Below are positions 1 through 54,838 of a stretch of DNA of 64,000 nucleotides, in pieces. The stretch's first letter is position 1. Each line of letters starts with the position of its first letter. The notes below the pieces were generated by a model. That model did no database searches, was not told where the DNA came from, and worked only from the letters and a program-made list of their open reading frames with translations. A program made the position numbers and the translations under genes. This stretch comes from Halorubrum hochsteinianum (GTDB lineage Archaea > Halobacteriota > Halobacteria > Halobacteriales > Haloferacaceae): the NCBI RefSeq assembly GCF_023702125.1, contig NZ_CP098415.1:372001-436000 (forward strand), given 5' to 3'.

Positions 1-130
1 GCGGTCGCGGGGCGGGACTCGAAGGGGCAGCCGCGAGGCGGTCGTAGGCGATGTAAGCACCGCAGGAGCGAACGGAGTGAGCGACGAGGAGCGCAACGAG
101 CGTACGCCCGCCTCGCGGCTGGGGCTTCGG
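1..130 (+). repeat. Dispersed three-hairpin element, copy 1 (truncated by window edge)
   Basis: This is the 3' part of an element also found at 16456-16717 and 53335-53570. Arms 20-46 and 103-129 can pair over 27 nt. The helix is CGAAG/CTTCG, then a symmetric GGG/GGG internal loop, then CAGCCGCGAGGCGG/CCGCCTCGCGGCTG, then one mismatch (T42 x C107), then CGTA/TACG. The 56-nt apical part (47-102) is almost identical to that of copy 3. Degenerate repeats of the 3' arm follow at 181-196 and 232-247. The function is unknown. Copy 1 lies beyond the 3' end of the permease gene encoded on the other strand. Confidence 0.85.
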
Positions 131-281
131 CCGTCTCTGTCACAAAGTTGCTCCCGACAAAAACAGGCACGTACAGCCGAGCGGCTAGGGCTTCGGTCGT
201 CTCAGTCACACCGTCAGTTTCGTCGTAGCAAGCGGCTGGGGCTTCGACCGAGTGTAGCGCCGCGTCTCGAAACCGATCCGG

Positions 282-16455: not shown

Positions 16456-16717
16456 GCGGTGGCGCGCGCCTCCGAGCGGTCGCCCCCGGCGGCCGCGAGG
16501 AGCGCGTGCGAGGGAGTCGCTGGCCCCGGAGCGAAGCGGAGGGTGCCAGCGACGAGGCTGGGGAGGCGTGAGGTGCGGGGCTGTTGCTGGGCGGGACTCG
16601 AAGGGGCAGCCGCGAGGCGGGCAGAGGCGACGTAAGGACCGCAACGAGGGAGCGACAGCGACTGAGTGAGGACCGCAGCGAGCGTCTGTCCGCCTCGCGG
16701 CTGGGGCTTCGGCGGTC
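16456..16717 (+). repeat. Dispersed three-hairpin element, copy 2
   Basis: A 262-bp element between convergent genes. Hairpin 1 pairs 16462-16469 with 16502-16509 (one G-T). Hairpin 2 pairs GTCGCTGGC (16516-16524) with GCCAGCGAC (16545-16553) perfectly. Hairpin 3 pairs 16599-16625 with 16685-16711: CGAAG/CTTCG, GGG/GGG internal loop, a 14-bp stem, then GCAGA/TCTGT. Compared with copies 1 and 3 the outer stem bases differ but pairing is kept. The function is unknown. Confidence 0.88.
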
Positions 16718-51924: not shown

Positions 51925-53301
51925 ATGGACGTACACGTCACGCGCTCGGAGCTCCGAGGGACCGCCCGCGCGCCGCCGTCGAAGAGCTACACCCACCGCG
52001 CGCTGCTCGCGGCCGGCTACAGCGAGGGCGCGACCGTCGAGTCGCCGCTGATCTCCGCCGACACGCGGGCCACGGCACGCGCCGTGACCGGGTTCGGCGG
52101 CGCGGTCGGTGGGATCGGCGAGGACGACGACGGGAGTGACCCCGACGGCGACCTCGGCGACGCCGACGCGCTCGCGGTCGAGGGGTTCGGCGGCCGACCG
52201 GGGGTCCCGGAGGACGTGATCGACTGCGCGAACTCGGGGACGACGATGCGGCTCGTCACCGCCGCGGCCGCGCTCGCGGACGGCACCACCGTCCTCACCG
52301 GCGACGGGTCGCTCCGGTCCCGGCCGCAGGGCCCCCTCCTCGACGCGCTCGGGGACCTCGGCGTGCGCGCGGAGTCGACGCGGGCGAACGGGCGGGCCCC
52401 GCTGGTAGTCTCCGGGCCGCTCGCGGGGGGCGAGGTGGCGATCCCGGGCGACGTCTCCTCGCAGTACGTCACGGCGCTGCTGATGGCCGGGGCCGTCACC
52501 GACGAGGGGACCGAGGTCGACCTCACGACGGCGCTGAAGTCCGCCCCGTACGTCGACATCACGCTGGAACTGCTCGCGGACTTCGGCGTCGAGGCGACCC
52601 CCGTCGACGAGGCCGGCGACCCCCTCGACGGGGCGGCGGGAGCCGCCGGCTTCTCGGTCCCGGGCGGGCAGACCTACGAGCCGGCGGGCGGCAGCTACGC
52701 GGTCCCCGGCGACTTCTCGTCCATCTCGTACCTCCTCGGGGCGGGGGCCGTGGCGACCGCGGAGGGCGAGACGGTCCGGATCGAGGGCGCGCGACCGAGC
52801 GCGCAGGGCGACGCGGCGATCGTCGACATCGTCGAGGAGATGGGCGCGGCGGTCGACTGGGACCGCGAGGCGGGCGAGATCGCGGTCGAGCGCGCCGCCC
52901 TCTCCGGCGTCACCGTCGACGTGGGCGACACGCCGGACCTCCTCCCGACGATCGCCGCGCTCGGCGCGGTCGCCGACGGCGACACCCGGATCGAGAACTG
53001 CGAGCACGTCCGCTACAAGGAGACCGACCGCGTGTCCGCGATGGCCGAGGAACTAGAGAAACTCGGCGCGGAGACGACCGAGGAGGAGGACGTGCTCACG
53101 GTCCACGGCTCCGAGAGCGACCTCCGCGGGGCGACCGTCGACGGGCGGGCCGACCACCGGATCGTGATGGCGCTCGCGCTCGCGGCGCTCGCCGCCGAGG
53201 GGACGACGACGATCCGCGGTGCCGAACACGTCGACGTCTCGTTCCCCGGCTTCTTCGAGACGATGGGCGACCTCGGGATGGACGTGGAGCAAGCGGACTG
53301 A
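51925..53301 (+). CDS. aroA: 3-phosphoshikimate 1-carboxyvinyltransferase (EPSP synthase)
   Basis: A 458-aa two-domain enzyme of the shikimate pathway, joining phosphoenolpyruvate and shikimate 3-phosphate. [56 protein letters not shown] and RYKETDR mark the active site. An acidic loop of about 15 residues near 69-82 is halophile-specific. The final 22 bp with the stop codon are repeated directly after the gene. No other aro genes are adjacent. Confidence 0.95.
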
Positions 53302-53334
53302 GGACGTGGAGCAGGTGGACTGAGACGGGCACCA

Positions 53335-53570
53335 GCGGTGGCGCGTGCCTGCGAGGCCGCACTGCGGCCGAGCAGCACGCGCGAGGGAGTCGCGAGCGAA
53401 GCGAGCGACGAGGCTGGGGAGGCGTGAGGCTGCGGTGCCGTGCGGGGCGGGACTCGAAGGGGCAGCCGGGAGGCGGGCGCAGGCGACGTAAGCACCGCAG
53501 GAGCGAACGGAGTGAGCGACGAGGAGCGCACCGAGCGTGCGCCCGCCTCCCGGCTGGGGCTTCGGCGGTC
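53335..53570 (+). repeat. Dispersed three-hairpin element, copy 3
   Basis: A 236-bp element between aroA and the GET3-like gene. Hairpin 1 pairs 53341-53348 with 53375-53382 and encloses GGCCGC/GCGGCC. Hairpin 2 pairs 53389-53393 with 53405-53409. Hairpin 3 pairs 53455-53481 with 53538-53564, fully complementary except for the central GGG/GGG. The outer stem here is GCGCA/TGCGC and the inner stem carries G-C where copies 1 and 2 have C-G. Confidence 0.9.
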
Positions 53571-53686
53571 TCGACCGCGGTGTTGCTCGCGGATCCCTCG
53601 AAGTCATTTGCCGAAATACAGTTTCGGCTCGACATCGATTCGTACAGACCGACGGGTACAGGTGGCCCGCGCGACGACACGGGAAC

Positions 53687-54838
53687 ATGGACAACATCGA
53701 CGTCGAGCCGGTCGACCGCGTCGACGAGGGCGGCGAGGAGAGCGTCGACGCGACCGGAGACGACGAAGCGCTCACCGTGGACGAGGGGGTCGCCGACCTC
53801 CCCGCGGGCGTCGACGCGCCAGACTACGTGCTGTACGGCGGGAAGGGCGGCGTCGGCAAGACGACGATGGCGGCCGCGACGGGGCTGGCCTCGGCCGCCG
53901 GCGGCGTCCGCACGCTCGTCGTCTCCACCGACCCCGCGCACTCGCTGTCCGACACCTACGAGACCGAGATTCCCGCCGAACCGGCGCAGATCCGCGAGGA
54001 CGTGCCGCTGTACGCGGCCGAGATCGACCCCGACGCGGCGATGGAGGAGGGGATGTTCGGGGCCGACGCGGACCCTCTCGGCGGGCTGGGCGAGATGGGC
54101 GACGCGATGGGCGGCATGGGCGGCGAGGGGGCCGCGGACGAGCCCGGCGAGGGGCTCGGCGGCCTCCTCGGCGGGACGATGCCCGGCGCGGACGAGGCCG
54201 CGGCGATGCGACAGCTGCTGGAGTACCTCGACGACCCGCGGTTCGACCGCGTCGTCGTCGACACCGCACCGACCGGCCACACCCTCCGGCTGCTCCAGCT
54301 ACCGGAGATCATGGACTCGATGCTCGGCCGCGTGATGAAGCTCCGCCAGCGCTTCTCCGGCATGATGGACGGGATCAAGGGGATGTTCGGCGGGGGCGAC
54401 GACGAGCCGGACCCCTCGGCGGACCTCGAAGCGCTCCGCGAGCGCATCGAGCGCCTGCGGGCCGTTCTCCGCGACCCGACGAAGACCGACTTCCGCGTCG
54501 TGATGATCCCCGAGGAGATGAGCGTCGTCGAGTCCGAGCGGCTCGTCGCCCGCCTCGACGAGTTCGAGATTCCGGTGAACACGCTGGTCGTCAACCGCGT
54601 GATGGAGGGCGTCGGCGACGTGACCGGCGGGATCGGGACCGCGATCGACCCCGACTGGGTGGTCGAGCCGAACCCCGACAGCTGCGAGTTCTGCGCGCGG
54701 CGGTGGGAGGTCCAACAGAACGCGCTCCGCGAGGCGACAGACCTGTTCCGCGGCCGCGAAGTGAAGCGGGTCCCCCTGCTCGCGAACGAGGTGCGCGGGG
54801 AGGCCGCGCTGCGGGTGGTCGCCGCCTGCCTGAACTGA
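53687..54838 (+). CDS. GET3/ArsA-family ATPase
   Basis: A 383-aa deviant-Walker ATPase with GGKGGVGKTT (51-60), the switch DTAPTGHTLRLLQLP, and a CEFC zinc motif near the C-terminus. An insertion rich in Gly/Met (about 120-165, GEMGDAMGGMGG) replaces the client-binding helices. The CxxC, the Met-rich region and the single nucleotide site fit archaeal GET3-like tail-anchored protein targeting better than arsenite pumping. ATG 53687 gives an acidic halophile-type N-terminal extension. Confidence 0.9.
   Translation: MDNIDVEPVDRVDEGGEESVDATGDDEALTVDEGVADLPAGVDAPDYVLYGGKGGVGKTTMAAATGLASAAGGVRTLVVSTDPAHSLSDTYETEIPAEPAQIREDVPLYAAEIDPDAAMEEGMFGADADPLGGLGEMGDAMGGMGGEGAADEPGEGLGGLLGGTMPGADEAAAMRQLLEYLDDPRFDRVVVDTAPTGHTLRLLQLPEIMDSMLGRVMKLRQRFSGMMDGIKGMFGGGDDEPDPSADLEALRERIERLRAVLRDPTKTDFRVVMIPEEMSVVESERLVARLDEFEIPVNTLVVNRVMEGVGDVTGGIGTAIDPDWVVEPNPDSCEFCARRWEVQQNALREATDLFRGREVKRVPLLANEVRGEAALRVVAACLN

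Follow-up and report, generated by a model that had tools for sequence, protein, structure and literature searches.

Dispersed intergenic hairpins occurring in hundreds of copies are known from bacteria as REP sequences and BIMEs, which are associated with RAYT proteins and for which recognition as a single strand is the working model. Haloarchaea also contain the omega RNAs of IS200/IS605 TnpB elements, which are structured and about 200 nt long. Palindrome-associated transposable elements (PATEs) have been described in the haloarchaeon Haloquadratum walsbyi (PMC3119063). Three copies of an apparently undescribed repeat were identified in a 64,000-nt window (the whole stretch of DNA analysed) of the Halorubrum hochsteinianum chromosome. 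No prior description was found in the open-access literature searched or in Rfam; an older account may exist. It has the look of a long-established, functional component of the chromosome and not of a jumping gene. The family is highly abundant among the structured sequences of haloarchaeal chromosomes, occurs in most sampled genera of the class and carries clear selection on its fold. If functional, it would point to an archaeal structured RNA or single-strand-binding system that has gone unrecognised and that could be tested in haloarchaea amenable to genetics.

The element is about 230 bp long and has a sharp 5' border at YGCGGTGGCGCG. In 5' to 3' order it contains hairpin 1, the motif GCGCGAGGGAG, hairpin 2, the linear motif CGACGAGGCTGGGGAGGCGTGAGG, a GC-rich linker and hairpin 3 (Table 1). 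Hairpin 2 is very variable in length between copies, and hairpin 3 spans CTCGAAGGGGCAG to CTGGGGCTTCGG across the family, with a GGG/GGG internal loop and a tandem-GA apex. In copy 3 this apex consists of short pairs split by tandem GA mismatches and ends in a GGA loop. The sequence GGCGGGACTCGAAGGGGCAGCCG occurs exactly three times in the window, compared with 0 of 100 shuffles. Copy 3 is located between aroA (ending at 53301) and the following + strand gene, whereas copy 1 starts ahead of the window, at chromosomal (C1) position 371889. The first-pass annotation had reported three copies in the same orientation with a three-hairpin layout, and all three were recovered where it had placed them. 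The base changes it listed were also read correctly: the hairpin-3 outer pairs (GCGCA/TGCGC in copy 3, GCAGA/TCTGT in copy 2, CGTA/TACG with a T x C mismatch in copy 1), the hairpin-3 inner pair (C-G to G-C), the hairpin-1 pair (T-A to C-G) and the shortening of hairpin 2 from 9 bp (GTCGCTGGC/GCCAGCGAC) to 5 bp (GTCGC/GCGAC).

Table 1. Positions in the window of the three element copies and their parts
Feature	Position	Strand	Details
Copy 1, 3' part of element	1..131	+	129.2 bits; 5' end cut off
Copy 1, tandem tail	115..250	+	GGCTGGGGCTTCGG-type cores at 116, 182 and 233, giving 66- and 51-bp units
Copy 2, complete element	16456..16713	+	217.6 bits, covariance model
Copy 2, hairpin 2	16516..16553	+	
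Copy 2, hairpin-3 arms	16599..16628 and 16682..16711	+	
Copy 3, complete element	53335..53566	+	BLAST, profile and covariance-model match (53340-53566, 196.3 bits)
Copy 3, hairpin 1	53341..53382	+	outer arms GCGCGTGC/GCACGCGC, inner arms GGCCGC/GCGGCC
Copy 3, hairpin 2	53389..53409	+	GTCGC/GCGAC, apex GCGAAGC at 53396-53402
Copy 3, linear motif	53406..53429	+	CGACGAGGCTGGGGAGGCGTGAGG, nearly invariant
Copy 3, hairpin 3	53454..53565	+	outer arms 53455-53484 and 53535-53564

Short tandem units, overlooked by the earlier annotation, follow many copies on the 3' side. Such a tail of 1-6 units was present in 47 of the 99 copies examined. Within most loci neighbouring units do not differ (median identity 1.0), whereas units from different loci are about 55% alike. 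With few exceptions they measure 51, 54, 57, 63, 66, 69 or 72 bp, and the length is a multiple of three for 52 of the 54 unique own units and for 24 of the 25 from other species (76 of 79 together). A coding tail was rejected, as stops interrupt each frame in some of the units and a TAA stands in the reverse frame of many 57-bp units; the main element shows no 3-periodicity and was likewise rejected as coding. Spurious long reading frames cross the element on both strands (window 53013-54280), several of them overlapping aroA and the next gene. Five such frames gave no Pfam matches, and frames of this kind could be mis-annotated as proteins.

A 22-base pattern of the family matched the genome 112 times (56 forward, 56 reverse), compared with 0 matches for the reversed-pattern control. 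An iterated profile search found about 125 elements in C1:1-2856000, the 2.856 Mb of chromosome covered, which corresponds to about one element per 22 kb. This stretch holds 109 of the 112 pattern matches and three more are listed later in C1, so the 101-kb second contig contains no elements. The first 100 kb of the chromosome (C1 1-100000) is also free of the element. By a simple gene finder of our own, 114 of 124 elements are free of predicted genes. Solo 5' parts are present in this genome, and in its list of matches the two halves of split copies are no more than a few hundred bases apart.

Selection on the folded form, proposed in the first-pass annotation, is strongly supported by covariation in 62 own copies at 58 pairs and by same-site pairs. 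Pairing is kept in 97.3% of cases, compared with 84.3 +/- 0.4% in shuffled alignments and 27-45% in slid controls. Both the structure and the alignment were derived from the same 62 sequences, which somewhat favours the structure; the shuffles and loci from other species serve as checks. Many copies lacking an excess of compensatory changes had been named as the outcome that would speak against the idea, and the copies showed the opposite. Two-sided changes were found in 436 cells, involving 31 pairs, compared with 125.6 cells after shuffling, and the covariation score was 0.364 compared with 0.135. They affect 10 of the 16 pairs of the hairpin-1 helix and all 4 pairs of the hairpin-2 helix.

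The changes also reveal which strand folds. A marked excess of G.T over A.C mispairs is not expected of a double-stranded palindrome or cruciform. In the full alignment (leaving out the short 122-139 helix with its common G.U pairs) there are 68 G.T and 18 A.C mispairs. A loose regex set of hairpin-3 arms gave 95 and 81, but this set is contaminated by tail-unit arms (pair scores 16-20), and the full alignment is therefore preferred. Helices that changed from G-C to A-T retained their purine orientation, with G.T intermediates. The mispair excess and the kept orientation together indicate that the + strand folds and is under selection as a single strand. With RNA and DNA parameters alike, the minimum free energy (MFE) is lower for the + strand in 62 of 62 copies; the two strands have nearly the same z-scores, so that part of this difference is due to composition.

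The reading that we prefer, tentatively and at somewhat less than even confidence, is that of an ancient intergenic family of the REP/PATE kind, selected in place for a hairpin array on single-stranded DNA that is read by a dedicated protein. The + strand, when exposed in replication or repair, would fold into three hairpins rich in G.A motifs. A dedicated putative protein would recognise the array as RAYT proteins recognise REP hairpins, and selection on the fold would hold the copies at mostly fixed chromosomal sites. The sites, the fold, the folding strand, the age and the spread are shown by the data; reading of the folded strand by a protein, and the strand being DNA, are inferred as the likeliest mode of action. 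RNA would be expected to prefer GNRA or UNCG tetraloops. The hairpin-3 apex loops comprise 41 GNA triloops, 9 GNYA tetraloops and 2 GNRA tetraloops in own copies, and 23, 4 and 0, respectively, in other species; GCGAAGC is present in hairpin 2 of 31 of the 62 copies. In DNA, G-C stems capped by a GNA or GNNA loop reach exceptional stability, GCGAAGC for example having a Tm of 78 °C (PMC4686876). The hairpin-3 loop types follow the DNA mini-hairpin rule (GNA, GNNA) and not the GNRA of RNA, which modestly favours single-stranded DNA over RNA. Against this stand the less regular loops of hairpin 1, the stability of the + strand under RNA parameters as well, and the lack of a partner protein: no protein with the Y1 transposase domain (PF01797) was found in this genome, with positive controls. 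Exposure of one strand regardless of orientation is also left unaccounted for by the single-stranded DNA reading.

A structured RNA, transcribed from a TATA-like box of its own or by read-through, with hairpins that are bound by an RNA-binding protein or influence how RNA is processed or how stable it is, is possible but on the whole unlikely. RNA is the commonest route to single-strandedness for a chromosomal locus, and the covariation is that of one strand with tolerance of G.U, as expected of an RNA and equally of folded single-stranded DNA; the conserved unpaired motifs also fit. Since the + strand is favoured under RNA parameters too and the strand z-scores are alike, energy does not settle between DNA and RNA. 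Many copies are preceded by an AT-rich stretch with TTTATAA-like boxes 9-26 nt upstream at near-fixed spacing. Upstream AT content is 46-52% compared with 32% in intergenic DNA, and TATA-like boxes occur in 15-28% compared with 1.3%. The enrichment of the boxes, more than tenfold over intergenic DNA, is independent of the orientation of the upstream gene, and boxes also occur within many tail units. However, the box lies at about -20 from GGCGCG, and the usual archaeal spacing would place the transcription start inside the 5' arm of hairpin 1. Some copies directly abut the upstream stop codon (locus L188), GNRA is avoided in apex tetraloops, Rfam gave no match above the gathering score and there is no orientation preference.

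The element is widely distributed. It occurs in each of the 52 genus members analysed and, by BLAST, in 134 of 170 genomes of the family. The covariance model found it in 150 of 194 genomes of the class Halobacteria, covering 55 of 65 genera, with rough E-values, distant matches often comprising hairpin 3 only, and a haloarchaeal GC content that could aid weak matches. In the phylum search 32 genomes matched, all 32 from the order of the window's own species. By eye, the GGGACTGAAAGGGGC / GGGGGCTTTC frame is retained in a Haloglomus locus (L268) whose inner arms differ entirely, and hairpins 1-2 are retained with the linear motif CGACGAGGCTGGGGAGGCGTGAGG in a locus of Halorussus halobius (L270). 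The latter (L270 5540-5880) carries them as an inverted pair without hairpin 3; the module of hairpins 1-2 and hairpin 3 can be separate.

Comparison of orthologous intergenic regions, suggested earlier as a way to detect presence or absence with target duplications, gave the former and no clean instance of the latter. The same site is occupied in this genome for 12 of 15 loci of other species with alignable flanks, and empty for three; these loci were chosen by similarity to a window copy. The 3' site of aroA was located in other genomes by means of the aroA protein: 11 other Halorubrum-type loci carry the element there, whereas elsewhere it is missing or displaced. These same-site copies are 72-88% identical (leaving out the identical pair L189/L214, apparently one strain), compared with a paralog average of 79%. 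In ten same-site pairs there were 99 two-sided changes and 20 one-sided changes that kept pairing, and 21 one-sided changes that broke it. Chimeric helices whose 5' and 3' arms are taken from different orthologs would have 17% of their pairs broken, compared with 2.6% in nature. Sites are thus shared and same-site copies are no closer than random paralogs, which points to long in-place selection on folding and not to recent spread.

The same-site divergence is compatible with saturation under a pairing constraint and also with exchange between copies; the pattern of linkage favours constraint. In a Mantel comparison, distances of hairpins 1, 2 and 3 showed no clear correlation. Within hairpin 3 the arms are linked to each other (r = 0.81 for the middle helix and 0.48 for the outer arms), whereas the apex is almost uncorrelated with its adjacent arms (r = 0.08 and 0.02). 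The copies therefore hold almost no duplication history, and only linkage by base pairing. Recent duplication bursts were rejected on the lack of correlation between hairpins. Gene conversion alone was also rejected, since it would not leave the middle arms of hairpin 3 linked across an unlinked apex. A related but rather doubtful reading would have a class-wide haloarchaeal element acting as single-stranded DNA, a vertically inherited mini-hairpin array (GNA/GNNA loops, G.A-rich stems) with a putative non-Y1 reader, a tail stepping by three bases and no mobile partner.

A non-autonomous mobile element of the PATE/MITE kind, moved as single-stranded DNA and needing its fold for transposition now or formerly, is quite unlikely. 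More than 100 dispersed copies, the sharp 5' border, the single-strand hairpins and the precedent of PATEs in Haloquadratum (PMC3119063) all agree with it, as do the three sites that are filled in another species and empty here, at one of which (L188) the element begins right after the conserved stop codon of the upstream gene. Yet the junctions of these three sites are not clean on both sides, and no empty site with a target duplication and precise on both sides was seen. Own aligned copies are mutually 67-88% identical, with hairpins that lack a duplication history, and most sites are common to species. No reverse transcriptase or IS200/IS605 partner was found in this genome, which also lacks the Y1 transposase; a search for IS91 (PF04986) gave nothing either but, having had no positive control, carries no weight. 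A longer autonomous version is missing from the own-genome matches, and a 1.2-kb insert at L188 was rejected for this role because its frame is unrelated. This stretch of another Halorubrum (L188 1750-2714) lies beside the element, is missing from the genome under study and contains a low-GC frame ending in GEAHHLGVGRR that is TraB-like by eye. Five plasmid records contain the element, whereas viral contigs gave no match to one exact 22-base pattern. A currently active mobile element is not supported: near-identical aligned copies are lacking, sites are mostly shared, and the element is absent from the second contig.

A functionless passive palindrome, in which arm complementarity is maintained by template switching during replication, is improbable. 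Template switching can yield a two-sided change in one step, as the 99 two-sided and 20 one-sided kept changes in same-site copies would suggest. It would not be expected to leave mismatched loops (GGG/GGG, tandem GA) and unpaired motifs conserved instead of corrected away, and the G.T over A.C bias, the nearly complete transition orientation of G-C to A-T changes and the retention of the element across the class also argue against it. Improbable to much the same degree, and slightly the least probable, is a role in the 3'-UTR, as a terminator of transcription or in forming mRNA 3' ends, as proposed in the first-pass annotation, which the intergenic location and a mild convergent excess (34 of 124 elements, 27%, compared with 20% of intergenic length) would fit and which is not supported because a gene-orientation bias is absent: upstream and downstream gene orientations relative to the element are balanced (++33, --35, +-34, -+22; n = 124), and the upstream gene shares the strand of the element in 67 cases and lies opposite to it in 57. 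These two readings fit worst. Of the earlier interpretation, selection on the fold stands, whereas the 3'-UTR or terminator role and a currently active mobile element are not supported.

The preferred reading of a folded single-stranded DNA array borrows from several known systems. Omega RNA is tied to TnpB, whereas three of the four TnpB genes of this genome are on the element-free second contig and no listed element lies near the chromosomal one (C1 1290309). The clustering of an attC-like integron array was not found, the elements being dispersed single sites. REP sequences are 20-40 nt long, whereas the present element has three hairpins in about 230 nt; RAYT is the Y1 HUH partner of REP and this genome has no Y1 HUH protein, so REP/RAYT serves as a working analogy. 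The SMRs/MITEs of haloarchaea are likewise short, non-coding and present in many copies, but their copies are highly identical and bear terminal inverted repeats (PMC3119063), neither of which applies here. The start YGCGGTGGCGCG and the end CTGGGGCTTCGG do not form an inverted repeat, and no autonomous version or duplication was seen. PATEs, by their description, are set apart by IS605-type-related ends and strain-specific insertions without target duplication (PMC3119063), whereas for the present element no link to IS605 was seen, its sites are mostly shared and its copies hold no duplication history. PATEs are nevertheless the nearest described class, although membership is not claimed. Like them, the element is short, non-coding, multi-copy and haloarchaeal, with palindromes near its ends and without terminal inverted repeats (PMC3119063). 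At about 230 bp it is too short for a transposase, its frames have no family match, and its 5' and 3' ends are occupied by hairpins 1 and 3, respectively.
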